From contig JANDJZ010000031.1 in NCBI GenBank assembly GCA_027943245.1, forward strand, positions 161,660-225,659: a stretch of 64,000 nucleotides of DNA, read 5' to 3'. Under the pieces are notes generated by a model, which saw only the letters and a list, made by a program, of their open reading frames with translations, was not told the origin of the DNA and ran no database searches. Both the position numbers and the translations under genes were made by a program. This DNA comes from Acanthamoeba sp. SK_2022b (Eukaryota; Discosea; Longamoebia; Acanthamoebidae). Shown piece after piece: positions 12,567-64,000 of the stretch (positions within the stretch are counted from its first letter, which is position 1; the number at the start of each line of letters is the position of its first letter).

Positions 12567-13196
12567 GCCTCCTCAATCGGCCGTCGATTTACAATTTGTA
12601 AACAATTTATGGATGGACCAAAAATCAGATCGTGCCACCACGGTGCCACGCCAGGAGGTGATACCGTGGCCTTGCTCGCACCGTTGGATGGGGAGTGTGG
12701 TGTTTCAGCAAGCCGCCAAGGCCGAAGAACCGTTGCCCCGCCAGCAAATTAAATTAATTACCGTGAAAAGAAGAAGAACGAACACGACGGAAAGCGAAAC
12801 GAAAAGCAACTAAGGAAACTGTCCACAAAAGTGCCAACCAGATGGTACTTCTTCAGTTGTTGAAGTCTAGGCTCTTGACCAGCAAATGGTGCTTAACTCC
12901 ACACATCATTTTAGATAAGGACTCACCTTGAAGACCAACAGTTCCCACCATCAGCTATGAAGTGGGAATCTTCCTCACTGCTCACCAGGCCAAAAGTAGT
13001 GGTTCATGCTGTAAGTGCTGGATTTGAAGCTGTGCAATGCACTCTTCAGAGTCACATGCCTGAAAATGGTTATAAAAATGATTTTCCGTGGACAATATCG
13101 TCGACCATCATATGGTTTTGGCGGGAGCGGCCCACGTTGCGTTTTGTCCGGCTTGGAGAGAAGCGTTCGTGATCTAGCCTGAGCTGGATAACACCA
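12567..13196. other. divergent intergenic region with a CpG-free islet
   Basis: A 630-bp gap between the diverging Roco and kinase genes, so both promoters should lie here. From about 12,812 to 13,086 there is not a single CpG although both flanks are CpG-rich. Short ORFs here look unlike the neighbours, and I cannot assign a gene. A TTATAAAAAT motif occurs near 13,070, upstream of the rightward kinase gene, and could be TATA-like, but this is weak. Confidence 0.5.
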
Positions 13197-47979: not shown

Positions 47980-48172
47980 CCCGCAGCGATAGCAATTTTT
48001 TTGCCTCTTTCCCCGCGATTTTTGCGTGTGCACAAAGAGGAAAAGATGCCAAAATTCCTAACCCGGTGCAATAGGCAAAGTCTATTGGTATGCACTCACC
48101 CAGTCCTCAATGTTAACATCACCCACTTGTGAGTATGTGAATGTACTGACTCCTGGTCATGTTCTGCCAGCT

Positions 48173-48481
48173 TCATGTGGACAGCTGCTGAGGATACAGC
48201 TTGCCACTTAGTTGCATGCAGAAATAAGGAACAATGTCACTATTGAACAAACCAAAAAACTGGTGTACATGCACCTGATGTTGAAGGTAAGTACTTTTCA
48301 TGTACATGCAAAATTCCTTGCAGTGGTCTTGTAGGTCATGGATGACTTCAGAGGGGAAAGGTAAGGATTTTGTATGGCTTATCACTTCCTTAAAGGAAGA
48401 AGTGAAAGATAGGGGGAATTGTAGACCCTCAATAGAGGTGAAGGCTAAGCCAGCTCTTTCAATCCCAAACAGTGTCAACAT
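48173..48481 (-). CDS. hypothetical protein in CpG-poor DNA, preceded by the 140-bp leader repeat
   Basis: 102 codons, open a further 16 codons upstream to a TAA. It has hydrophobic and aromatic character (LTLFGIERAGLAF, FPLSFTSSFKEV, VHVHQFFGLFNSD) and no recognised domain. Codon and base composition (low CpG) differ sharply from the DCAF4 gene 200 bp away. The upstream sequence on this strand is the repeat also found upstream of the ORF at 62139-62366, including a CAG|GTAAGAT donor-like site, so the gene may have a leader exon. Confidence 0.4.
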   Translation of the reverse strand: MLTLFGIERAGLAFTSIEGLQFPLSFTSSFKEVISHTKSLPFPSEVIHDLQDHCKEFCMYMKSTYLQHQVHVHQFFGLFNSDIVPYFCMQLSGKLYPQQLST

Positions 48482-48523
48482 GATGAAAAGTTGGAGCAGC
48501 TCCTTAACCCATAGGGCTGATTA

Positions 48524-48663
48524 ATTAAGCCACTTTGTTTGATTTTGATAGATGTGAAGTTGACCATCTTACCTGGCAGTTGAATGTTGAAAGCATATCT
48601 TTCCAGATTTTTCTCTAAACACCCAAGGCCAGAAAGTGATTATTGTTCTAAGACTTAGAGGAT
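48524..48663 (-). repeat. 140-bp leader repeat, copy 1
   Basis: Closely similar to 62,379-62,520 in the same orientation. Shared landmarks, read on the minus strand, are CTAAGTCTTAGAACAAT, TAGAGAAAAATCTGGAAA, CAACTGCCAGGTAAGAT and ATCAAAATCAAACAAA. It lies immediately 5' of a leftward ORF, as does copy 2. Confidence 0.85.
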
Positions 48664-48735
48664 GCCATGGAAACACATAAAACTACTTAAACTCATAAAA
48701 CTCGTAGCACTGGTGTCATCAATACAATGAGTAAA

Positions 48736-48942
48736 ACTAGTTTTGAAGTAGTGAAACTTGTTTTGTAGGAGTAAAACGAGTTGGGCACACATTGAACGAG
48801 TTGCACACTAGTTAAACAAGCTTGCCACTCATAAAATGCATAACACTAATTGAACACACATTTAATGAGTAGGACACACATCAAATGAGTAGGACACACA
48901 TGAAACTGGTTTGACACTCATAGGATTAGTTGGACACATATG
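48736..48942. repeat. degenerate 20-bp minisatellite
   Basis: Ten or so tandem units of 20 bp with consensus close to ACnAGTTnGnCACnCATnAA, for example 48865-48884 and 48885-48904, which differ at one position. One partial unit (48856-48864) breaks the phase. The tract lies in noncoding, CpG-poor DNA. Confidence 0.85.
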
Positions 48943-48960
48943 CTGGTTGGTAAAGACAAT

Positions 48961-49780
48961 TTATTGGTAGTGTTTTGCCTTGAGCTGGCTCACAATTGCC
49001 CAGCGAGTTGAGTTACAGGCATCAGGGCACTGTGGTGCCATGCAGGAGACAAGCACTATCCCACACAATGATGGTGCCATGGCAAGCAGAGACATACCAA
49101 TGTAGTTCTGGGCAGAAGAATCTCCAGTGCTGAGTGCAATGCACACATGAGCATCCAGGGCGATGATCCTCAAGAAACACTGCAATTGCCTTGGTACTTT
49201 GCAGGTCACCAGTGTCATTGTGGGCCACAGTTGTGTAGTCATGAGTGTCAAACATGTTTGTCGTGCCTGTGTCACAGAACACAGGCACTCCAGCATGGGC
49301 TGCAGCAAGCTGTCAACTAGCAGGAGGTTAGTTGGGTTAATGGATAGAAAGGAAGTTACTGTTCATGTCCTCAAGCTTCCTTGCAAAGCGAGCAATTGTT
49401 GCAGCAAGGGTGGGAGAATACTCCTCCACAGTTTGGCCAAGCTCCTCATGGATCCTGCCCATCTTGAGCAGATACAACTGGAATGGCTTACCAGTTGCAT
49501 ACTTTTGAGTCTGTCCCATACCAGCAACATGGCCCTTCTCTTTGATAGAGTTATGCTTCAGTGATGGCATTATTGCACTCACCTGCAGCAGTGTCCAGCA
49601 GAGACCATGAGTGATGGTTAGTTGGTTAGTGAACTGGACACAAGAAACTCTGGGTTTAGGGTAATCAAGTTTATTATATACAGTGTGTAAAACAAGACAC
49701 CACAATGCCAGGCACGTATATTGCCGTGGCAGTGTCCCAAAGGGCAGTATGAGTCCTTGAAAAAGTAACATACCCTTCAT
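48961..49780 (-). other. fragmented ORFs in CpG-poor DNA (possible decayed gene)
   Basis: The leftward frames hold two proteinaceous stretches: 49337-49780 (with VSAIMPSLKHNSIKEKG and a GTGAGT donor-like site at 49583) and 49022-49288 (with VFCDTGTTNMFDTHDYT and IAVFLEDHRPGC). They are in different frames, with stops between them. They could be exons of one gene or a decayed ORF. No domain is recognised. Confidence 0.35.
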
Positions 49781-49910
49781 ACGATATCATTTTGAAGCCC
49801 ACGAGCTCCTCTACAAGATTTAATGATTCAATTTTAAATCGGACATCATACAACTGAGATATACGATCGTCTTTACTTTTTAGCTGAAACAGTGGGTAAG
49901 GACTATGTCA

Positions 49911-50160
49911 CTAATGTTGGAACTGAAGCTGAGCTTGTAGATTGGTTTGTTGAGATTGGAAGCCAAAGCACACACAAAGGACAACTTGCCGGTGCCCGGT
50001 GCACCCCAAAGTAGATACCCTTGCCGATAAGGTTGTCCGCTCTCCGATAGATTTCGATTGCCTGCTTGGAGAAAAAGCGTTTTGCTTTGTTGAAGGCATG
50101 ACTGACATCCAGGGCCAGTGCCAGGCTCTTCACGTTGCGCTTGACCTTGGCACGTGCAGC
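49911..50160 (-). pseudogene. BCS1-like AAA ATPase fragment, frameshifted
   Basis: One minus-strand frame gives LALALDVSHAFNKAKRFF and IYRRADN. A neighbouring frame gives PYRQGYLLWGAPGTGKLSF followed by ALASNLNKPIYKLSFSS. In BCS1-type AAA proteins (mitochondrial Rieske-assembly chaperone family, also found in amoeba giant viruses) these segments are contiguous around Walker A, so a frameshift separates them here. Walker A ends GKL rather than GKT/S. Nothing of the Walker B or later AAA region follows within the window, so only a short relic remains. Confidence 0.7.
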
Positions 50161-52130
50161 AGATCACATACCGATGGTGTTGTGCTGGTAAAAGTGCACA
50201 GTCATGTCGCCGTGTCCCTGGTAGTTTACCAGAGCCTCTTCAACCACTGTGGGGCGTCATCGTGGACAACTGCCTCGAGCTTGATCACCCGCTTCTGCCC
50301 GGTGATCTTCTCTACTTGAGGGTGGGTAACGCGCCCGCCAATTTCCTACGTTTGGACACGCACGCCAACCGACCCAGTGAATTGCCACACGAGACCATGC
50401 TTGCGTGGAAGAAACAGAGGATCGGCGAACACGTAGACAGCTTCATCCATTTGTGCGTGTCAAAATTCTCCGTTTTGCAAGAGGCCGCATCCAAGTTGGA
50501 CGCTGCAGTTACTGTGTTCAGGAAGACGGGCGAGCACTTCGTAGACAGACACTTGGCCGATCAGTACGCTTCGGTGAGGTTCAGTGGTCTGTACCCGTTC
50601 CTTCCAGTGTCTCAGCGGCCTGTCGACGAGCCTCTCGGAGGGTTGCCGTCGGATAACCTCTGGGTCAGGTGTGCCGACTCCTGTGGCTACGACATCCAAC
50701 AGCCGCTTCCTCTGCTTGCGTTGGCCAGTGTCGCGCTCGCCCACTTCCTTGTCATGAGGAAGTCGGATGGCCGCGTCAGTCATGCCTCATTCTACGCGTT
50801 TGACAATTCACCGCTGGATGTGACGAGTAGGTCAATCACAGACGCCATGCAGGTGTTGCGCGTTGTGCGCCCTCGACAGGACAAGTTCTGGTGTTCCGAG
50901 GGCGGGCAGCACTACCGCATGGTGGTGGAGTCACCCGTGACCGGCACTCTTCAAGATCTCATGGAGTCGGAGTCCATGACCGAGAAGGACGTGAAGCAGA
51001 TGGTGAGACTGGTCTACAGGATCATCAACCGGATCATCAGCTACGGCCCTCGGCCGGCGGCGGGGAAACACGCCCACCGCAACTTTGATCTGATCGACGC
51101 AAGACCCCTCGAGTTTGTCTACACATGGACCAAAGAAGACGGCAAGCTCAACATGTGGCTGGCCAGCTCTGAGAACATCGTCGTGCGCTGCCGCCCCCGG
51201 CAACTGCGCGAACAGACCCAAGAGAGGGTGCATGAGCTGATGTGGGATCAATTCGTCGGAGGCTGTGTGAGTGCGCTCGTGGGAAGCACTGACGCTGCGG
51301 CAATCGAAGCCAAGCTGGCGTCGGAGGACACCATCTTGCATGCGGTGATGGACCACACGACCAAGTTCTCTGGCTTCTTGGAAGCCGTCGAAGCTCACAA
51401 GACGATCGAAAGCCAGCACTTCGCCATCCCGGACGTTGTTCCGACGGAGAAGTACATCGATTGTCTTGAAAGGAACGGCTACGCCATCATCCAAGAAAGC
51501 CTGGCCAGAGCAGCCTCTGGTGATCCTCATGCGCAAGTCATCGCGCAAGTAGTGTCCAAATCCAACGGCGCTGACAAGAAGCACCACTTCAAGGCAGTTA
51601 TCTATGGGCATATCAACAATGCACAGGTACAGTGCATGGAAAGAAGCATCACCAACGTGTACACCGCAGTCGGAGATCAATGCCTGATGCCTTGGGTCGA
51701 ACACATCCTACCATGCCCCGAGGCAGATGGTCTCGTGATACTGCAGGGCGCCACTGGCTCCCTGTTGAGCGACAATCTGTTCAGGACGTCCACCGAAACC
51801 GTGGCAGAACTCGTTCACAATTTCCTGACCGAGATCTACTCTGGTCCATCGCCTCTGACTTTCCGGTGGCGCGTGACTGTGGACAGCTTCATGCTTGACC
51901 AGAACGGCCGAAACCTGACTGTTTCCACTGCCACGATCTTGCAATTCCTGCCCAAGTATGCCGCACCCAACGCCCAGACGAGAAAGGACAGGATCATCAG
52001 AGGCATGAGGGACTTCTTCCTGGACTACATGGATCTGGTCAGTCCCAGTCATGAAAAGTGCAGCGAGCTTGCCAATGCCTTTAACGTTATCCTGGATAGT
52101 GAATATGGACTGTCTCCTATGTTTGCTTAA
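50154..52130 (+). CDS. 658-codon intronless ORFan
   Basis: A long uninterrupted frame in CpG-normal DNA, unusual in a genome where most genes are split. The frame opens with GTG at 50154; the first in-frame ATG is at 50398 (ETMLAWKKQ). An upstream exon is possible because the opening residues overlap the BCS1 relic. I recognise no domain securely. A central stretch (HYRMVVESPVTGTLQDLM, VRLVYRIINRII, KHAHRNFDLIDA) loosely resembles a kinase hinge, helix and HRD loop with N for D, but without DFG. The C-terminal third has FRWRVTVDSFMLDQNGRNL and TILQFLPKYAA. The gene ends with TAA. Expression and homologues are unknown. Confidence 0.6.
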   Translation: MQQITYRWCCAGKSAQSCRRVPGSLPEPLQPLWGVIVDNCLELDHPLLPGDLLYLRVGNAPANFLRLDTHANRPSELPHETMLAWKKQRIGEHVDSFIHLCVSKFSVLQEAASKLDAAVTVFRKTGEHFVDRHLADQYASVRFSGLYPFLPVSQRPVDEPLGGLPSDNLWVRCADSCGYDIQQPLPLLALASVALAHFLVMRKSDGRVSHASFYAFDNSPLDVTSRSITDAMQVLRVVRPRQDKFWCSEGGQHYRMVVESPVTGTLQDLMESESMTEKDVKQMVRLVYRIINRIISYGPRPAAGKHAHRNFDLIDARPLEFVYTWTKEDGKLNMWLASSENIVVRCRPRQLREQTQERVHELMWDQFVGGCVSALVGSTDAAAIEAKLASEDTILHAVMDHTTKFSGFLEAVEAHKTIESQHFAIPDVVPTEKYIDCLERNGYAIIQESLARAASGDPHAQVIAQVVSKSNGADKKHHFKAVIYGHINNAQVQCMERSITNVYTAVGDQCLMPWVEHILPCPEADGLVILQGATGSLLSDNLFRTSTETVAELVHNFLTEIYSGPSPLTFRWRVTVDSFMLDQNGRNLTVSTATILQFLPKYAAPNAQTRKDRIIRGMRDFFLDYMDLVSPSHEKCSELANAFNVILDSEYGLSPMFA

Positions 52131-55207: not shown

Positions 55208-55851
55208 ATGGCAAACAACCTTCAGGTGGACTACTTGTTCATCGTCCAGCTAGAAGGCAATAGAACCAGGGGGTATGTGCCCACGGATGAACAGGGCCAT
55301 GTGCTAGGGCATAGTGGCGTGACGATTGGCGTGGGCTATGACCTGGGTCAGCACAGTGAAGCGGACCTTCGTGCACTCAATCTGGACGACCAGTTGATCA
55401 GGAAACTCAGGCCCTATCTTGGCTTAAGAGAGCAGGTGGCCGAAGACGCACATCCCGAGAATTTGGTTTTGACCGACAACGAGGCTGAGAAACTCAATAG
55501 TGCTGTTATGCGCCTCCATGCTGCCCACGTGGCTGAACTCTACGAGAAGGCCAGGACGAGACACTTTAGTGTGCTCCCAGGGGCTGCACAAACGGTCATT
55601 GCGTCAGTCCTTTATCAGTATGGTAACCCTAACAAGGTACTCGCCAACCGCTGTTTCTCTATTAACCTTACCTCGCACTCACTGTCCTTACTGGTTGATA
55701 GGTACCCAACTTCTGGAGAGACGCCATAGACACTAACTATGTGGGCATGGTCAAAGAGCTGAGGCACTTTGGTGATAAGTACCCCACCCGCCACAACAAG
55801 GAAGCTGACCTTCTCCAAAACTGGATTGACCACAATCAGCACCATCCTTGA
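55208..55851 (+). CDS. pesticin/T4-lysozyme-type muramidase-like protein
   Basis: Two exons (55208-55636 and 55702-55851) join in frame to 192 residues. The first carries EGNRTRGYVP, then HSGVTIGVGYDLGQHSE, which holds the Glu and the Gly-Tyr-Asp segment typical of pesticin-like and T4-type lysozymes, then LTDNEAEKLN and TVIASVLYQYGNP. The second gives VPNFWRDAID and the closing ELRHFGDKY with RHNKEADLL. The family cleaves the MurNAc-GlcNAc bond of bacterial cell walls. No signal peptide or pesticin receptor-binding domain is seen. The spliceosomal intron shows it is a nuclear eukaryotic gene, and CpG content is normal. A role in digesting or fending off bacteria is inference. Confidence 0.82.
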
Positions 55852-55948
55852 ACTCTGCATTGCTCTCGACAAAGAGTTCTTGTGGATAGGCCGTCATAAA
55901 TTGTATGGAAAATCACCCATTAAAATGAAGAGAGGCCTTTTCCTTAGA

Positions 55949-56266
55949 TTACTGAACAAGCAGCGCAATGTCATTCCTGTTGGAGGCCTCCTTGAAGTGG
56001 TTCAGCTGGGTGTCACTTTGGTCAGTAACAGCGGTTTGTGTGGTGAAAAGTAAACAACACCATGGATGACCAGCACTCCACTGCCAGTGTCTAAACAACC
56101 TGACACAGACCAACTGCCCCCACTTGGATCCAACCATCAAGGACTGGCACATTGGCTCAACATGGACCAGCAGCTCAGTTCCAGCCAATGGCAGCAACAT
56201 GATGATCCCTGCCAATACCAGGGTGTTGGTGTCCTCCTGCTCATTCAACCAGTCATTCAAGGACAA
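55949..56266 (-). CDS. hypothetical ORF at the start of the CpG-poor block
   Basis: 105 codons, opening MSLNDWLNEQEDTNTLVL with a short hydrophobic stretch. No recognised domain. It overlaps nothing better, but could be chance coding in low-stop DNA. Confidence 0.25.
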   Translation of the reverse strand: MSLNDWLNEQEDTNTLVLAGIIMLLPLAGTELLVHVEPMCQSLMVGSKWGQLVCVRLFRHWQWSAGHPWCCLLFTTQTAVTDQSDTQLNHFKEASNRNDIALLVQ

Positions 56267-56352
56267 TCACAATCCCAGCCAGCTCAGCGCTCATCCCTCA
56301 TGACTGTGAAAACCACAAGGTCACAATCAGTCACTGTTGGGCAGGGTGGTCC

Positions 56353-56826
56353 ATGGTGAGAGCCATGCCCACTTACACTCGGCCCACTCAGGTAGAACAA
56401 CAAGTGATTGCCACATGTAACCCCACTGAGGCCATGAACATTGCACTTGATATTGACCAGGTCATCAACAACAGACTCAGCATGGGAGATCATGAGATTT
56501 TCATCCAGAAACAGTATTGCCAGTCCACCACAAAGTTCAAAGACCTCTTATATGCACTGAGACTTCTTCAAAACACCAATGTCTACGCCTCTCATCAGGA
56601 TTTCCAGATCATGTTGGTATTGCAAGATTGTTATCCTATCCTCATCACAAATGGTGAGGTGTGTGATGGACATTTGTATACATTCTTGGACAACAGCATG
56701 GTGGACACATCTTTTGGTGACAACATACATGAAACCCAATGGAGCAAGGATGCCACAAGGTGGATCAGACATTTCATCAAAACCAATGGAGAAAGCTGGG
56801 ACAAGCCCATGTTCATTTCCAACTGA
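56353..56826 (+). CDS. hypothetical protein, member of a local tandem duplication
   Basis: 157 codons from ATG 56353. The central part reads TKFKDLLYALRLLQ and FQIMLVLQDCYP; the C-terminus reads LDNSMVDTSFGDNIHETQWS. About 1.1 kb downstream the same C-terminal segment recurs (LDNSMVDTPFGANIHKTRWS) in a degenerate copy, so the region was duplicated. CpG-poor and without introns. A poly(A)-signal-like AATAAA lies just after the stop. Function unknown. Confidence 0.45.
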   Translation: MVRAMPTYTRPTQVEQQVIATCNPTEAMNIALDIDQVINNRLSMGDHEIFIQKQYCQSTTKFKDLLYALRLLQNTNVYASHQDFQIMLVLQDCYPILITNGEVCDGHLYTFLDNSMVDTSFGDNIHETQWSKDATRWIRHFIKTNGESWDKPMFISN

Positions 56827-56959
56827 TAAATCAGCAATAAATCCATCTTAACTGAACTGCATCTTTATTTTGGTTGTGTGTGTCATGTGTCATGTGTTTG
56901 TGTGTTTTCATATTTCCTTCCCTTTAAAACTCTGAGATTAGTAAAACCAACATCATCTA

Positions 56960-57196
56960 CTACCACCATGAGCAACCCAACTGGCGAAAATGCCACATGA
57001 GTCTCCCTGTAATGTGTTCAGAAAGATACCTGGTGTCCATGACAAGGTCACATAAAAGGACATAAACATCAACCAAATTGGCCTTCCTGCTCGCTGAAAC
57101 ACAGTTGCCTGCGCCAACCAAAAAGTCTTTGCCAGTCTCCTTGCTACCATAACTCCACAGGAAAGGGTCTGCCACTGCAACGGTTACACACAGCAT
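56960..57196 (-). CDS. short hypothetical ORF
   Basis: 78 codons with balanced composition (VAVADPFLWSYGSKETGKDF, DVYVLLCDLVMDTRYLSE) ending LGCSWW. No recognised domain; could be an exon or relic. Confidence 0.3.
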   Translation of the reverse strand: MLCVTVAVADPFLWSYGSKETGKDFLVGAGNCVSASRKANLVDVYVLLCDLVMDTRYLSEHITGRLMWHFRQLGCSWW

Positions 57197-57340
57197 TTTT
57201 TCGCCAACTGGGAAGCGCCTGGTTGTCTAGTGTTTGTAGAAGTTTCCTCCCTCTAAAACTCCAGCAGTAGTTTATAATGAAAGTGTGATTTTGTTCTTTT
57301 TGAACCTAACCCTCTCACCTACCACCACCCAACCATCACC

Positions 57341-57982
57341 ATGAGCCTTGTTGGAGGGGATTGGTATGTTCACTGCAGCCACTGCAACCAACAAGACAAG
57401 TGCAGCAGCCTTACCAAGGACCACAAGTGTTCAAAATGCTCACACCACATGTTTAGAAACAGCAAGGGATGGTGACTTGCACTAAAGGCCATCCAAACAC
57501 TGTATCGGGGGTGACTCACAAACACCAGTGCAATGCCTGCACAGGAGCATGCAGGCAGTAGTTCAGCAAATCTGTCTCTTGCACCAACCACTCCTGCCCA
57601 CAATCCACACCAACCATACCACCCACCGCCACCCAACTGTCCCCTCCCCATTTACACCCTTCTGTCTGGAGGCTTAAAAGTTTATGGCATAGTCACACAT
57701 CACTCACACTGCCCTTTGATTATTTTCCTTGCTTCTTTGCACTTTGTGGGATACAGTCAACCTGTGGTAACATACAAGGACCTCTTGGGTGAATTGTACA
57801 CATTTGACTTGGACAACAGCATGGTGGACACACCATTTGGTGCCAACATTCACAAGACCAGATGGAGCAAGGATGCCACCATTCAGAGCAGACAGTCATC
57901 AAAACCCATGGAGAAAGCTGGACAGCCCCATGCTAATTTCCTGATTGTTAAATCAACAATAAAAAATGTCCACATCCATTAA
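57341..57982 (+). pseudogene. Cys-rich (zinc-ribbon-like) ORF with two in-frame TGA codons, partial duplicate of 56353-56826
   Basis: ATG 57341 begins MSLVGGDWYVHCSHCN and continues with a CxxC...CxxC pattern (HCSHC, KCSKC). In-frame TGA codons at 57473 and 57512 are followed by continuing sense (LALKAIQTLYRG, MPAQEHAGSSSANL, a Pro-rich stretch) and then the duplicated LDNSMVDTPFGANIH segment, after which the frame shifts relative to the upstream paralogue. It looks like a decayed gene. Both TGA codons could derive from CGA by C-to-T change. Confidence 0.45.
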
Positions 57983-57996
57983 GGTTAACTAAGTTT

Positions 57997-58025
57997 CCTA
58001 ACCCTAAACCCTAAAACCCTAAACC
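57997..58025 (-). repeat. interstitial telomere-like tract, inverted relative to the terminal array
   Basis: Four tandem CCTAA/CCCTAAA/CCCTAAAA units, the complement of the terminal TTAGGG/TTTAGGG mix. It lies in the CpG-free run just before the deoxynucleoside-kinase-like ORF. Confidence 0.75.
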
Positions 58026-58071
58026 ACTCCAAAACAAAAAGAAGCACAGGACAGTCATCAAGGAAACAACC

Positions 58072-59166
58072 ATGGGTTCTGCTCACTCTCATGAAAATGA
58101 AGATCAGTCCAACAACTACACTGAAGAGGAGGAGGAGAGGGAAGAGGAAGATGAAGTTGATCAGGAAGGAGAGGAAGAGGAAGATGAAATTGAAGGTGAG
58201 GAGGGCTAGGATGAGTATTCTTCTTCCTCTTCTGAAAATTGTTACAATGATAACAGTGACAGTAGTTTCTCCATGGGGGAATTTGGATGGGATAAGGATC
58301 AAGACATCAACAATCTCAGCAATAGTGAAGGATACAAGGAGATTGAGGGGCAGATGCACTCTTCCAGAGAGAGCAACAGGGCAGAACCAGATGAATTGCA
58401 GCCACTTCTGTCCACTGCACCAAGTCCCCAGGTTGATCACACATCCTCCCTGCACAGAGTGCTGAAGATCATTGTGGATGGGCCAATCAGGGCCAGTAAG
58501 ACATCCATCCTGCAAGTGCTCCAAGCCCTCCAGGAGGTTTCCATGGTCTGACCCAAGTTTCAAAACAAGATGCATGTCATCTTTGAAGACATGGACAAGT
58601 GGGCGTACCTGCTCAAGAAGAACTACAAGACCATGGACTGGTTCCACAAGGGCAATCACTCATGGTCCATCAATCCACAACTCTTCCAACTCAAGGTGCT
58701 GACACACTACCTGTCAGTGATGGAAAAGCTCATGAAGCTCAAGGAGGCCTGCGCTCAAGATCCTGAATGGTTCAAAGTGGTCCTCATGGAGCATTCACCA
58801 CTGGACATGATCAAGATCTTCTTGGAAGCCAATGGCAGAGTCAGCATTTACAGCAAACATGACCTGGAGACACTCCTACGCATCAGAGAATTGATCACCA
58901 GTGCACTGGTATGGAACAACAACATCCATTATCTTATCCTGGATGTGGATGCGTTGCTGTGCACTTCACATATGCGTGTGCAAGACCAGGATGGGGAGGA
59001 GAACATTGACCTCACCTACATGACCAAGATCAAGAAGGCCTACAGACATTTCAAGAAGGACTTGGGCAAACATGCCACCTACATGCCCATCTCCTCTGGG
59101 CAGAACCCATACAAGGTGGCAAACGATGTATTGAAGATCATTTACAGGCTTTCACTGTGTTGTTAG
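58072..59166 (+). pseudogene. deoxynucleoside kinase-like ORF with in-frame TAG and TGA
   Basis: One frame from ATG 58072 to TAG 59166 is interrupted by TAG at 58207 and TGA at 58549. An acidic leader precedes LKIIVDGPIRASKTSIL, which occupies the place of the dNK P-loop but has Ser where the Gly before Lys should be. FEDMDKWAYLLKKNY and WSINPQLFQLKVL follow, then MEHSPLDMIKIF (where the ERSxxxD motif belongs), YLILDVDALLCTSHMRVQD (lid-type segment) and NIDLTYMTKIKKAYRHF. This order is that of the deoxynucleoside kinase family (thymidine/deoxyadenosine kinases, common in large DNA viruses and eukaryotes), which phosphorylates salvaged nucleosides. The frame has no CpG until 58604. A decayed gene is the simplest reading. 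Confidence 0.65.
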
Positions 59167-59257
59167 TTGAGCATATTCAGCATTTTTAGGACAAGTATTC
59201 CCATGAGATTTCCATTACCATTTTACTTTGCCACACATAAAAGATGCCTCCTGCTAC

Positions 59258-60040
59258 ATGGAGTGCACACCACTCAAGGAAAAGATGCAATCACAAACAC
59301 AGCACTCCATTCCACCACACCTCACACCACCCAGCAGACAAGTGCAAGCCAGGAGCGCAGTGCCTGCCACCCTGGCCATCAGCACCAGCAATGTTCCTCC
59401 CTCAACGCAGTACCAACAGCCACAGAGCCTGTTCCAACTCACATGGAGGCAGATAGTCAATATCCTCCTGTGTGCTGATCTGGAGTCCACCCATGAGCAA
59501 GCGTACAATCAGGAAGGCCTCACCAGCAGCTGCATCATGGACAAGCTCCTCGTTCAGCACACAGTGTTTGCCTTGGTGCAAGGCCTGGTGAAACAGGCAA
59601 GTAGCCAGAGAGACAAGGTTGCAACCAGAACTAAGCCTGTTGACATGCCTGACGATCTCAACAACAAAACGGTGTGGCACCATCACATGCACCACCCAGT
59701 GGTCCCATGGATGGACTACAGACTGCACTTTGAGTGGCGCTCTGTGACAGCTATGGGACCTAACAACCTCTACTTTAGCACCCAGAAAAACGCCAGGCGA
59801 GCCACATATTGTTGGTTGACCAAGCGGGTCAGCAATCCAAGCCAACTTCTGCCTTCTTGGCTGATGATGGAAGCCAACAAGGCAAGAACACTTTGACATT
59901 TCCTGACGTGGATGGACGAAGTACAAGACGCCAAGGAGCAAGCAGCCACCAAGTCGTGGATACAAAGTGTTTTAGTTGGTCCGGACGACATCATGGCTAT
60001 CACTTCATATGTCCCATGCGCATTGGAATTTATGGCATAA
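59258..60040 (+). pseudogene. hypothetical ORF with one in-frame TGA
   Basis: From ATG 59258 (ECTPLKEKM) through a Pro/Gln/Thr-rich stretch to LTWRQIVNILLCADLE, VFALVQGLVKQASSQRD and WHHHMHHPVVPWMDYRLHFE. TGA at 59894-59896 is followed in the same frame by FLTWMDEVQDAKEQAATKSW and VGPDDIMAITSYVP up to TAA 60038-60040. The tail reads as sense protein. Family unknown. CpG-poor but less extreme than the dNK region. Confidence 0.4.
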
Positions 60041-60229
60041 AGAAACATTTCCAAAAAAAAAAAACAAAACTTAGACAAAGAGATAGAGCTCATGGCCTGT
60101 TGCCTTTCCTATGGCATTAGCTCACCTGATGACCAGCATGAGTTGGGACTCCAGACCTCTACTAGTGATAACTACAATATCATACATTTTTATGTGGCAC
60201 ATGGCTAGCAAACAAATCACCATCTATTG

Positions 60230-61282
60230 TTACAATGTAATCTCCATGTATTTCCCAGTCTTGTATTCATTGTTAAATACTTCTTCGGCACAAAAGAGGG
60301 TACTCAAGGGCTGAGGGGGAACCAATATCAGTGGCAGGATGGATGGCGGTCTCAAGGACAATACTTCCTTGTACTTGAGAAAGATGCTGTTGGTGCTCAG
60401 ATCAGTGCATATGGCCATCAAGTCAAGCATCACATTCTGGAAATCAACCAGCTTCTTCACACACTCATGAATCATGCTGTAGTTCAGTGCATTGACACCC
60501 AAGATCCATTGAAGGTCAAAGCACCACAGAGGCATGGCAAGTGTCACATGGGTGATCACCAAGGAGGCCATGGCAATGATGGATGGAAGAAAGCCAGTGG
60601 AGCCAACACCATGATCCACCACCATCATTTCTGGGACAAGGGAAGACATCTCGCAGTAGTAGCTGGAGAGGGAGTCGCCCTTTGTGCATGTCTCCTTCAA
60701 CTGATCCCATGCGCAACACGACACAAGGTCCCTGAAGTAGAGCAAGAACAAGTGTGGAGTCAGAACTACAAGGCTTGTGGGAGTGGTGGTCATGACCAGC
60801 GCAAACTCCACAGCACAAATCTCCATGCAGTTCACATGGTACTTGGTCATGCAGGCATAGTCGTCAACAGACAGGCGCAAACTGTTGTCTAGCTCTTGCA
60901 TCTTGGCAGCCAGGCAAACACAGGCCATTCCAAGGCACTGGTAGCAGGACAGAACAATCTGGGCCTGCCTGTGGTAGACATAGTCATCCAGACACTGGAT
61001 GGCCATCTCAAACATGTGGGAAGAAAAGTTGAATTCAGTGCATAGTTCATTCATCCAGCTCACCAGAATCTTGCAGTTGTTGAAACTGATGCCAGTAGTC
61101 TGTGCCCCTGGTTGCTCTTGGAACCAGCGCCTGACACCCTGACTCTGTTCCACCTCATGCATATTTGACAGCACATCTTGAACATAGGCCACCTCAAACG
61201 GTTTGTGTCAGTCTCACTCAAGCCTTGTCTCCATGGACTGCTTGTAGAAGTCAGTACACTGTTCACTACAGATGCAGGCCAT
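60230..61282 (-). pseudogene. cyclin-like protein with two early in-frame TGA codons
   Basis: The minus-strand frame from ATG 61282 has TGA at 61216-61214 and 61210-61208, then about 320 open codons to the stop at 60230. The open part shows a cyclin box: VSWMNELCTEFNFSSHMFEMAI, YQCLGMACVCLAAKMQE, LSVDDYACMTKYHV and MEICAVEFALVMTTTP, corresponding to the first cyclin fold and the conserved Ala-Lys in its third helix. A second helical half follows. Cyclins activate cyclin-dependent kinases. If translation begins at an internal ATG the main domain could still be made, so disruption is probable rather than proven. CpG-poor. Confidence 0.65.
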
Positions 61283-61475
61283 CTTGTTTTCTGGTAGTAA
61301 TTGTTGTCATCATTGAAGTAGATGATGTAAAACACAGTGAAATATAACTACAATGTGAGTTCATATACAAAATATGTAAGTTCACATGAAATTCATGTTG
61401 TTTATAAATATATTATTTTTTGATTGTTTTATCATTCATCAATGTCAATGACCCCAACACTCAAATCCTATTGTC

Positions 61476-62144
61476 ATGCAGCAGGACAACAATGCCCCCT
61501 GGGAAAAGGACCCTCTTGACCCAACATGTTTCATTCAATGGATGGAGAAGCCACTACCCAAGAACTCCATTGTCATGATTCACACGCTCCAGGGCAACAG
61601 TACCAAGCCGGGCTGGATTCTGGTGTGGACACATGACAACACACCCTTTGACAAGCACAGCGACCTCAAGAAGATCACAGAGGAAGCCAACTTCTTCATG
61701 AGCATCACCACTCTCCAACAAGTATTCACCACCAAGGCCAAGCACAAGTTCCAAGTGTGCTACTACAAGGGCTATGAGGAGGAAGCCATCCAAGCCAATT
61801 CCATCATCTACGGCCCACTCAACAACTACATGGAGTCTGTCAGGACCAACAACAGCCAGGTCTACAAGACTCTACCATACCAAATGCTGGCAGAGCTCCA
61901 GTACATCTTTGCACTGGATATGTGCAGCGAACCTACCAAAACCTATGCACCAGGCAAGCCTCTTGTTACATTCAAGAAGAAGTGAAAGAGAGTCGGCAAG
62001 AAGAAGGACAAGCCAGAGAAAGAAGAGAAGACTGACAAGCCACCCTCCAAGAAAAAGAAGAAGCAGCAGCAGCAGAGCAACACAAAGAAGAAGAAGAAGA
62101 CTAGATCTATTGCCAAGGTCACAAAGAGCAAAAGTGTGTCATAA
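61476..62144 (+). pseudogene. hypothetical ORF with Lys-rich tail beyond an in-frame TGA
   Basis: From ATG 61476, 169 codons (KPLPKNSIVMIHTLQGN, PGWILVWTHDNTPFD, TKAKHKFQVCYYKGYEEE, NNYMESVRTNN) lead to TGA 61983-61985. The same frame then continues 52 codons of Lys/Ser/Gln-rich sequence like a nuclear-targeting tail to TAA 62142-62144. A Lys run straddling the TGA makes read-through or recent mutation of a CGA Arg codon plausible. No recognised domain. Confidence 0.45.
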
Positions 62145-62366
62145 AATGGCAGGCGCCAATATAATTATGCCTTCATCCAATTTTGATAATTTGGTGAGTA
62201 AGTCAATGCGCACTTTGCTTGTCTTTGCCAGCCTCTCATCCACACTGTCCATAAGCTCACGGTATTCAACAGGATCAAGATATTCCTTGGTCATTTCAAG
62301 ATCATGTTTTGATGGACTGCCACTGCTAAAATGCCACACAAGAATCCTTGGCAGTGATCTTGTCAT
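62139..62366 (-). CDS. hypothetical 75-codon ORF downstream of leader repeat copy 2
   Basis: Reads MTRSLPRILVWHF, DLEMTKEYLDPVEYRELMD and VRIDLLTKLSKLDEG. It starts 13 bp after the leader repeat, in the same arrangement as the ORF at 48173-48481 although the two proteins are not alike. Probably real or a terminal exon, but small. Confidence 0.4.
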   Translation of the reverse strand: MTRSLPRILVWHFSSGSPSKHDLEMTKEYLDPVEYRELMDSVDERLAKTSKVRIDLLTKLSKLDEGIIILAPAIL

Positions 62367-62378
62367 GGGCTTGGGCTG

Positions 62379-62520
62379 ATTTAAGCCAATTTGTTTGATT
62401 TTGATAGTTGTGAATGTGACTAGATCTTACCTGGCAGTTGCATGTTGAAAAGCATATTTTTCCAGATTTTTCTCTAAACGCGCAAGGCCACAAAGTGATA
62501 ATTGTTCTAAGACTTAGATG
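62379..62520 (-). repeat. 140-bp leader repeat, copy 2
   Basis: Direct repeat of 48,524-48,663, conserved along its whole length including the CAACTGCCAG|GTAAGAT donor-like site and an AT-rich stretch before the ORF start. Confidence 0.85.
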
Positions 62521-62597
62521 ACCAGCCCTAATAAGACTTGAGAGATGGATGATAGGAAGAAGAAGAAAAAAAACAATGGAGTTGGAGGTCTATATTA

Positions 62598-63510
62598 TCA
62601 TTCTTTCTTGGGACCCAAGAGAATTACCTCAAGGTTGGGCTTGAGGAATTCCTCCACACATTCCAGGGCATTCCCCATCTGGTCAAAGTCCTCCCAGGTG
62701 TTGAACTCAGTGGGGTAGCCTTCCCACTTGACCCAGACCTCGAGCTTGCTATCCTCACTATTGATCCTCATGTCTTGAATTGCTTCCACTTGATCCTCTT
62801 TCTCGTTGTCGCTGAAGTTGTGGTTGTTGTCAGAGTTCATCTCTTCTTCTTCTTCTTCTTCTTCTTCATCTTCTGCTTCTTCCTCTTCTTCCTCTTCTGC
62901 TTCTTCCTCTTCTTCCTCTTCCTCCTCAAGCAGCCTGGCACTCTTTCTTTTGTGGCCAGACAAGCTTTCCCACTCTGCATCATCAGCAGTTTCTCTAGCC
63001 TTCCTCTTTTCCACATCGACTCTCTGGACTTTTCCCTCAGAGGTGATGGCACCAAGCATCTTCTTTTCCATCTCAGACATGGTTTCGTGGTCACATGCTG
63101 CTACCTTGGCAGAGTTGGCCAGGTGAAGAGTACCCTTGTGTTTTTTGTGGAGATCATGTCTTTTTTCCCCCCCCCAACCCAGTGCACACTTTGCTGTTAG
63201 TTTGACAAACAATCTAGTGTGTGTGTGGGGGGGGGTTAAGAACCACACAAACCTGTTATAGACAGTCTTCATGACCTTGACAGAGACTCCCAGGTAATCA
63301 CTGAACCTGTTGTGGAGGTGCTCTATGGTCTCACCTTCCTCCAGGGGAATCCTCTCTGTGTTTGTTGTTGTTGTTGTTGTTGTCTATTAGTTTTTTTTTG
63401 TTGTTGTTTTTTTTGCCTGTGTGTGTGAGAGAGAGAGAACCTGCAAAGAGATTGGTGATGACCATCCTCCTGAAGTCAAGGGCTGAGGTGGTGAGCTCAG
63501 GGTTAAAGTC
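62598..63510 (-). pseudogene. chromodomain protein gene truncated by the telomere
   Basis: The C-terminal part reads VEAIQDMRINSEDSKLEVWVKWEGYPTEFNTWE (positions about 62,660-62,780), a chromodomain with the aromatic residues W/Y that would cage methyl-lysine. It is preceded by a long Glu-rich run and a basic SGHKRKSARLL. Upstream exons at about 63,256-63,340 (ERIPLEEGETIEHLHNRF) and 63,441-63,509 (SALDFRRMVITNLF) join in phase. The latter exon runs into TTAGGG repeats at 63,511, so the 5' end of the gene is missing. Chromodomain proteins bind methylated histones in heterochromatin. The gene is CpG-poor. Confidence 0.7.
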
Positions 63511-63740
63511 TTAGGGTTAGGGTTAGGGTTAGGGTTAGGGTTAGGGTTAGGGTTAGGGTTAGGGTTAGGGTTAGGGTTAGGGTTTAGGGTTTAGGGTTAG
63601 GGTTAGGGTTAGGGTTAGGGTTAGGGTTAGGGTTAGGGTTAGGGTTAGGGTTAGGGTTAGGGTTAGGGTTAGGGTTAGGGTTAGGGTTAGGGTTAGGGTT
63701 AGGGTTAGGGTTAGGGTTAGGGTTAGGGTTAGGGTTAGGG

Positions 63741-63781
<41 letters not shown>

Positions 63782-63905
63782 GGTTAGGGTTAGGGTTAGG
63801 GTTAGGGTTAGGGTTAGGGTTAGGGTTAGGGTTAGGGTTAGGGTTAGGGTTAGGGTTAGGGTTAGGGTTAGGGTTAGGGTTAGGGTTAGGGTTAGGGTTT
63901 AGGGT

Positions 63906-63965
<60 letters not shown>

Positions 63966-64000
63966 GGTTAGGGTTAGGGTTAGGGTTAGGGTTTAGGGTT
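63511..64000 (+). repeat. telomere array, TTAGGG with TTTAGGG variants
   Basis: About 80 tandem hexamers with scattered heptamer TTTAGGG variants, for example near 63,581 and 63,898. The array runs to the window end with the G-rich strand 5'-to-3' outward, as expected at a right-hand chromosome end. Confidence 0.98.

Follow-up and report, generated by a model that had tools for sequence, protein, structure and literature searches.

Viral DNA near the chromosome ends of Acanthamoeba has been described before. Methylated, silent viral insertions at Acanthamoeba subtelomeres were reported by Blais et al. 2025 (PMC12210455), and repressive 5-methylcytosine (5mC) has been found on viral transfers in A. 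castellanii, Cyanophora and Naegleria, with CpG methylation of 1.3% in A. castellanii (PMC12344493). Across eukaryotes, 5mC has been concluded to have no substantial influence on the base composition of genomes (PMC12695648). A strong local effect would be hidden by such genome averages, and an effect of this kind is seen in Acanthamoeba sp. SK_2022b. The window analysed here is a stretch of 64,000 nucleotides at the end of contig C478 (assembly of 44.9 Mb in 1129 contigs). An adenosylhomocysteinase exon from this assembly aligns with PDB 6uk3, the A. castellanii enzyme, with 6 differences in 132 residues and 284 bits, compared to 213 bits for the next chain; together with the assembly size and the GC content this makes Acanthamoeba almost certain as the host. 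Next to its telomere lies a block that has lost most of its CpG dinucleotides and contains interrupted genes, among them a deoxynucleoside kinase, a cyclin and an orphan gene with a lysine-rich tail (the tail gene). This block is very probably a CpG-decayed foreign insertion, presumably viral, at a subtelomere, which makes it a known kind of locus in an unusually clean state.

The block resembles the insertions of Blais et al. in its foreign genes near telomeric repeats, its broken genes and its host genus (PMC12210455), and differs from them in that neither a hallmark gene nor a confirmed viral relative was found for it. The decay spectrum is an addition to that work, as deamination and stop codons are not mentioned in the sections of the paper drawn on here (PMC12210455). 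CpG methylation, described as a silencing mark in the work on viral transfers (PMC12344493), is a likely cause of the decay, with methylation maps presented there and a sequence consequence here. Methylation and silencing of the block would fit the published Acanthamoeba data. No report of this decay spectrum in Acanthamoeba was found among titles and the opening parts of abstracts, which is no proof of absence.

CpG decay in the cyclin and tail genes

Searches of 5.8 billion proteins gave five relatives of the tail gene (P0001–P0005), four of the cyclin (P0006–P0009) and two of the kinase (P0010, P0011), on contigs of 1.0–9.4 kb. In these relatives the genes are single open frames. Contigs of 2340, 7225 and 9442 bp recur in the lists for both the tail gene and the cyclin, so the two genes are probably adjacent in the relatives as well. 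Outside this window the gene set of cyclin pair and kinase is known only from short contigs, and its recognition is new here. A scan of genome_contigs confirmed no prokaryotic relative, P0010 gave no match to solved structures at 0.01, and predicted models of the orphan and cyclin families were too poor for a fold search (mean predicted local distance difference test, pLDDT, of 38 and 32, respectively). The kinase relative P0011, on a contig of 6283 bp, looks partly decayed and is perhaps another insertion of the same kind.

For each codon differing from a relative it was asked which class of change alone explains the difference; the classes can overlap. Against the two closest relatives, P0001 for the tail gene and P0009 for the cyclin, 67 codons differ, three of them stops. 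CG→TG/CA accounts for 62 of these, leaving five other changes. With stops left out, the CpG class accounts for 32 of 34 differences from P0001 and 27 of 30 from P0009, while shuffled controls gave means of 7.8 and 7.2 and maxima of 15 and 14, respectively. None of the 64 residue differences from these relatives is explained by a CpA or CpC class, two are explained by CpT, and 59 by CpG. Both strands were changed, with C→T in 24 codons and G→A in 38 when read on the coding strand. Changes limited to CG→TG/CA on both strands, the pattern of CpG decay, were found in these two genes and not at 56096–56295. On these alignments the decay of the cyclin and tail genes is near-pure, and its measured purity is new here.

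The CpG class was also counted for the remaining relatives of the tail gene (P0002, 31 of 73 differences; P0003, 31 of 66; P0005, 6 of 25), the cyclin (P0008, 37 of 62; P0006, 46 of 116; P0007, 46 of 98) and the kinase (P0010, 42 of 76; P0011, 13 of 37). All of these except P0005 exceed their largest shuffle, P0011 barely (13 vs. 10).

The stops can be read in the same way. All eight in-frame triplets listed in the original prediction are present, and four of them can be compared with relatives. The TGA codons at 57473, 57512 and 59894 have no relative, and the TAG at 58207 lies upstream of the start of P0010, the only relative extending so far, so it may be outside the kinase gene. At the four covered stops, relatives have arginine in nine of ten aligned cells and glutamine in one. 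The proposal that the TGA codons are decayed arginine codons is supported at these four positions and by the spectrum of two whole genes; the same process would have made the other stops. A genetic element in which TGA encodes an amino acid could be suspected from the fact that seven of the eight listed stops are TGA, but this is almost certainly wrong. The relatives, predicted with the standard code, span the covered stops with the arginines just described, their tryptophans face TGG in ten of ten cells, and the stops belong to the same change class as dozens of other differences. Recoding would be recognised by one constant residue, not a mutational product, at the TGA positions in relatives, and no such residue was found. 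For the four stops with relatives recoding is rejected, and the remaining stops do not require it.

Composition and layout of the block

At 1–48000 the window has a GC content of 0.578 and a CpG observed/expected ratio (o/e) of 0.99. At 55850–63510 the o/e is 0.16, with 65 CpG; in 394 equally long, overlapping windows taken from 1–47000 the number is 548–757. TG and CA together reach 1.56 times expectation in the block and 1.16 times at 1–48000. The interval 57629–58603 contains no CpG, the nearest lying at 57506, 57627 and 58604. The contrast with the CpG-rich core, the suspected TpG/CpA excess and the CpG-free interval were all borne out. The existence of the block was likewise upheld, but its left edge was not, as a segmentation with two states, based on CG, TG/CA and other dinucleotides, moves it from 55850 to 55675 (Table 1).

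The segmentation also returned a second depleted block, which is perhaps a former chromosome end. The two are separated by 5.7 kb of CpG-normal DNA (o/e 0.86), so the depletion is not a simple rise towards the telomere. When other telomeric contig ends were extended, four of four switched from depleted DNA to an o/e of 0.86–1.05. The edges of decay are sharp and element-bound, which is new here. A further stretch of 286 bases at 12801–13086, with zero CpG and a GC content of 0.43, was picked out by the segmentation amid CpG-normal DNA.

The main block is a composite, in which ~6 kb with the cyclin, deoxynucleoside kinase and orphan genes is followed by 1.1 kb of telomere-associated repeat. The kinase, cyclin and tail genes each occupy one genomic place. 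The kinase has lost conserved P-loop glycines and is thus broken independently of its stop codon.

Table 1. Features of the depleted blocks and the chromosome end, in window coordinates.
Feature	Positions	Strand	Basis
Second CpG-depleted block, o/e 0.17, containing repeats, among them part of the telomere-associated repeat	48026–49989	.	Segmentation
Pesticin-type lysozyme gene, apparently intron-containing; last gene on the CpG-normal side, at the block edge	55208–55851		Pfam 5.8e-34
CpG-depleted block, o/e 0.16	55675–63510	.	Two-state segmentation and composition
Fragment 72% similar to part of a CpG-rich open frame of 658 amino acids elsewhere in this genome (contig C1074)	56096–56295	+	
Orphan open frame; 87-base stretch (83%) in common with frame 57341–57982	56206–56826	+	No Pfam match above cut-off
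Orphan frame with two TGA codons, at 57473 and 57512, both read through	57341–57982	+	
Decayed deoxynucleoside kinase gene, stops at 58207 (may be outside the gene) and 58549	58072–59166	+	Pfam dNK 1.2e-11 downstream of 58549; relatives P0010, P0011
Orphan frame with TGA at 59894	59207–60040	+	No Pfam match, no viral_contigs relative
Decayed cyclin gene, TGA at 61216 and 61210	60230–61282	-	Pfam Cyclin_N 2.6e-13, Cyclin_C 1.3e-5; relatives P0006–P0009
Orphan gene with lysine-rich tail (tail gene), divergent from the cyclin gene, TGA at 61983	61476–62144	+	Relatives P0001–P0005
Telomere-associated repeat, multi-copy	62368–63510	.	Near-full-length copies, 93–95%, on seven other contigs; partial copies on more
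Acidic 160-amino-acid open reading frame (ORF) within the repeat, chromodomain at its end	62598–63080	-	Pfam Chromo 1.5e-8
TTAGGG telomere array	63511–64000	+	Sequence

The near-full-length copies of the telomere-associated repeat lie on C688, C466, C488, C713, C15, C534 and C205, and a second, more distant repeat family shows 66–67% identity. The copies examined are CpG-poor too. In eight of 11 copies the longest open frame still finishes in the chromodomain. A codon comparison of ten copies of the chromodomain ORF with the window copy gave 0–3 synonymous and 3–7 nonsynonymous codons of 160, and no sign of purifying selection.

A bias of the decay towards one strand was suggested by 802 CA vs. 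514 TG on the plus strand at 55850–62367, across both coding directions. This imbalance is outside the range of 162 windows from 1–47000, and arginine columns in which both outcomes are visible divide 27 vs. 13 by strand (two-sided P 0.038). The bias is not consistent, as the depleted parts at four other telomeric ends differ in direction, and the strand asymmetry is 0.248 at the CpG-normal locus L002 vs. 0.219 in the block. It is not relied on here.

Frames on the minus strand at 49880–50239 resemble a fragment of a BCS1-type AAA ATPase when judged by eye; a BCS1 homologue is reported for Medusavirus (PMC6450098). An open frame of 661 amino acids at 50145–52130 has no Pfam match. A PF04997 search of the assembly gave an exon of Pol II as well as bacterial contigs, and did not settle the host. 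Locus L028 (C1005) encodes a bacterial RpoC, and L027 (C186) looks similar and is perhaps bacterial.

Source of the insert and cause of the decay

The explanation that best accounts for the locus would begin with foreign DNA, carrying a deoxynucleoside kinase and a cyclin, that was inserted between the last host genes and the telomere-associated repeat. Insert and repeat now lie in DNA stripped of nearly all CpG; the host would methylate cytosine in such DNA and the methylated cytosine would deaminate to thymine. CpG-containing arginine codons would become TGA stops in this way, leaving the genes dead. Near-pure CpG→TpG/CpA changes in two genes are what would be expected if the host methylates and 5mC deaminates, and no special mutator would be needed. 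A genome search for C5 cytosine DNA methylases (PF00145) found matches at 11 places on six contigs, the match on C44 being HhaI-like. Given the bacterial contigs in the assembly, it is likely but not proven that a DNMT1 is encoded in this genome.

The original prediction regarded the whole block as foreign. This is supported for the kinase, cyclin and tail genes (58.2–62.1 kb) and fails for the last 1.1 kb (from ~62368), a host multi-copy repeat; the frames at 56.2–58.0 and 59.2–60.0 kb have no known relative. The donor was likely a large DNA virus of amoebae. Cyclins are reported for the amoeba viruses Medusavirus (PMC6450098) and Clandestinovirus (PMC8383183), as in the block, while the sections of these papers drawn on here mention no deoxynucleoside kinase for either. 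Medusavirus is the commonest viral best hit in Neff according to Blais et al., who also report that no Acanthamoeba viral insertion holds the full hallmark suite (PMC12210455). Within a single contig, the insert of ~6 kb has CpG-normal DNA on one side and the telomere-associated repeat on the other, in keeping with the integration near a chromosome end of giant endogenous viral elements (GEVEs). Strict GEVE membership is not claimed, as no hallmark gene was found.

Several results weigh against a viral insert decayed through host methylation. Scans of nine pieces between 55133 and 63383 gave no Pfam match to viral hallmark genes (capsid, PolB, packaging ATPase), and scans of viral_contigs confirmed no relative. 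The strongest PF00145 match, on C152, places a bacterial HaeIII methylase (2.2e-21) ahead of DNMT1 chains (8.3e-20). The relatives were compared as proteins, hence the spectrum is a protein-level one. P0005 falls within its shuffled range, and the more distant relatives show many non-CpG differences, which would fit divergence between donor lineages. Lastly, the alignment of the fragment at 56096–56295 with C1074 covers 199 bases and shows 49 differences; 17 are CpG-type and 18 are transversions, indicating much ordinary divergence too.

The missing hallmark genes and the lack of a confirmed relative in viral_contigs also favour a non-viral donor, in which the same CpG process acted on foreign or accessory genes that came from another amoeba, a plasmid or a transposon. 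The left part of the block, where one piece resembles a gene present in this genome, points in this direction as well. The occurrence of kinase and cyclin together, and the single open frames and short contigs of the relatives, fit a virus better, although they are no proof, and a non-viral source is rather unlikely while still the most serious competitor. Contamination or misassembly could have attached foreign DNA to the contig, and bacterial contigs do occur in the assembly. This is very improbable as the block passes gap-free into a repeat shared with seven other contigs and then into the telomere. Some DNA viruses are CpG-poor, and a donor CpG-poor from the start would need no decay after insertion. 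This is less credible still, as the relatives' residues demand CpG at the 62 changed codons and the host's own copies of the telomere-associated repeat are equally CpG-poor.

The remaining alternative concerns the cause of decay rather than the donor, and holds that the DNA was disabled by an active mutator directed at CpG, in analogy to repeat-induced point mutation. Support for it comes from the rate of change. The 411 codons compared contain 62 CpG-class changes, 13 remaining CpGs and five other changes, so that the ratio of CpG to other changes per site is 78–84 uncorrected and 170–218 corrected. Both are rough, protein-level values from a model in which 0.75 of other changes and 0.5–0.9 of CpG changes are taken to show in the protein. 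The number of other changes predicted is 95 at a ratio of 10, 63 at 15, 48 at 20 and 19 at 50, compared to the five observed. The telomere-associated repeat, multi-copy and equally depleted, also suits a mutator. Repeat-induced point mutation of fungi makes C→T changes on both strands and inactivates DNA, acting in a CpA context in Neurospora. The block shares the C→T changes on both strands and differs by its CpG context, no CpA-class difference being seen against P0001 and P0009, and by its single-copy targets. A duplicated target is present for the repeat at 62368–63510 but not for the three genes, whose single genomic places speak against a mutator, and a runs test shows no sign of strand-wise clustering vs. 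P0001 and P0009. A high ratio would also be expected from unrepaired 5mC deamination in a species whose base-substitution rate is low. In double-stranded DNA, 5mC deaminates at ~6e-13 per second at 37 °C; without repair, ~0.9–1.2 changes per CpG cytosine need some 50,000 years, and longer if cooler or repaired. A passive process in such a species could yield the observed ratio; an active mutator is not required and appears improbable. A broader version is similarly doubtful, in which an Acanthamoeba CpG-directed mutator responds to foreignness or methylation, disables foreign DNA even when it is single-copy, and here hit an undescribed lineage of amoeba virus with a deoxynucleoside kinase and a divergent cyclin/orphan pair.

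Implications for foreign DNA in Acanthamoeba

Under passive decay of a methylated foreign insert, the preferred explanation, the stop codons record, in the form of mutations, the way in which foreign DNA is disposed of in a protist genome. The gene set of cyclin pair and kinase exists in environmental sequence, and frames broken by TGA close to protist telomeres are not necessarily a sign of recoding. If the ratio of ~80–200 is true at the DNA level, CpG decay alone would kill an insert long before ordinary drift, and such insertions would be findable and roughly datable without methylation data.

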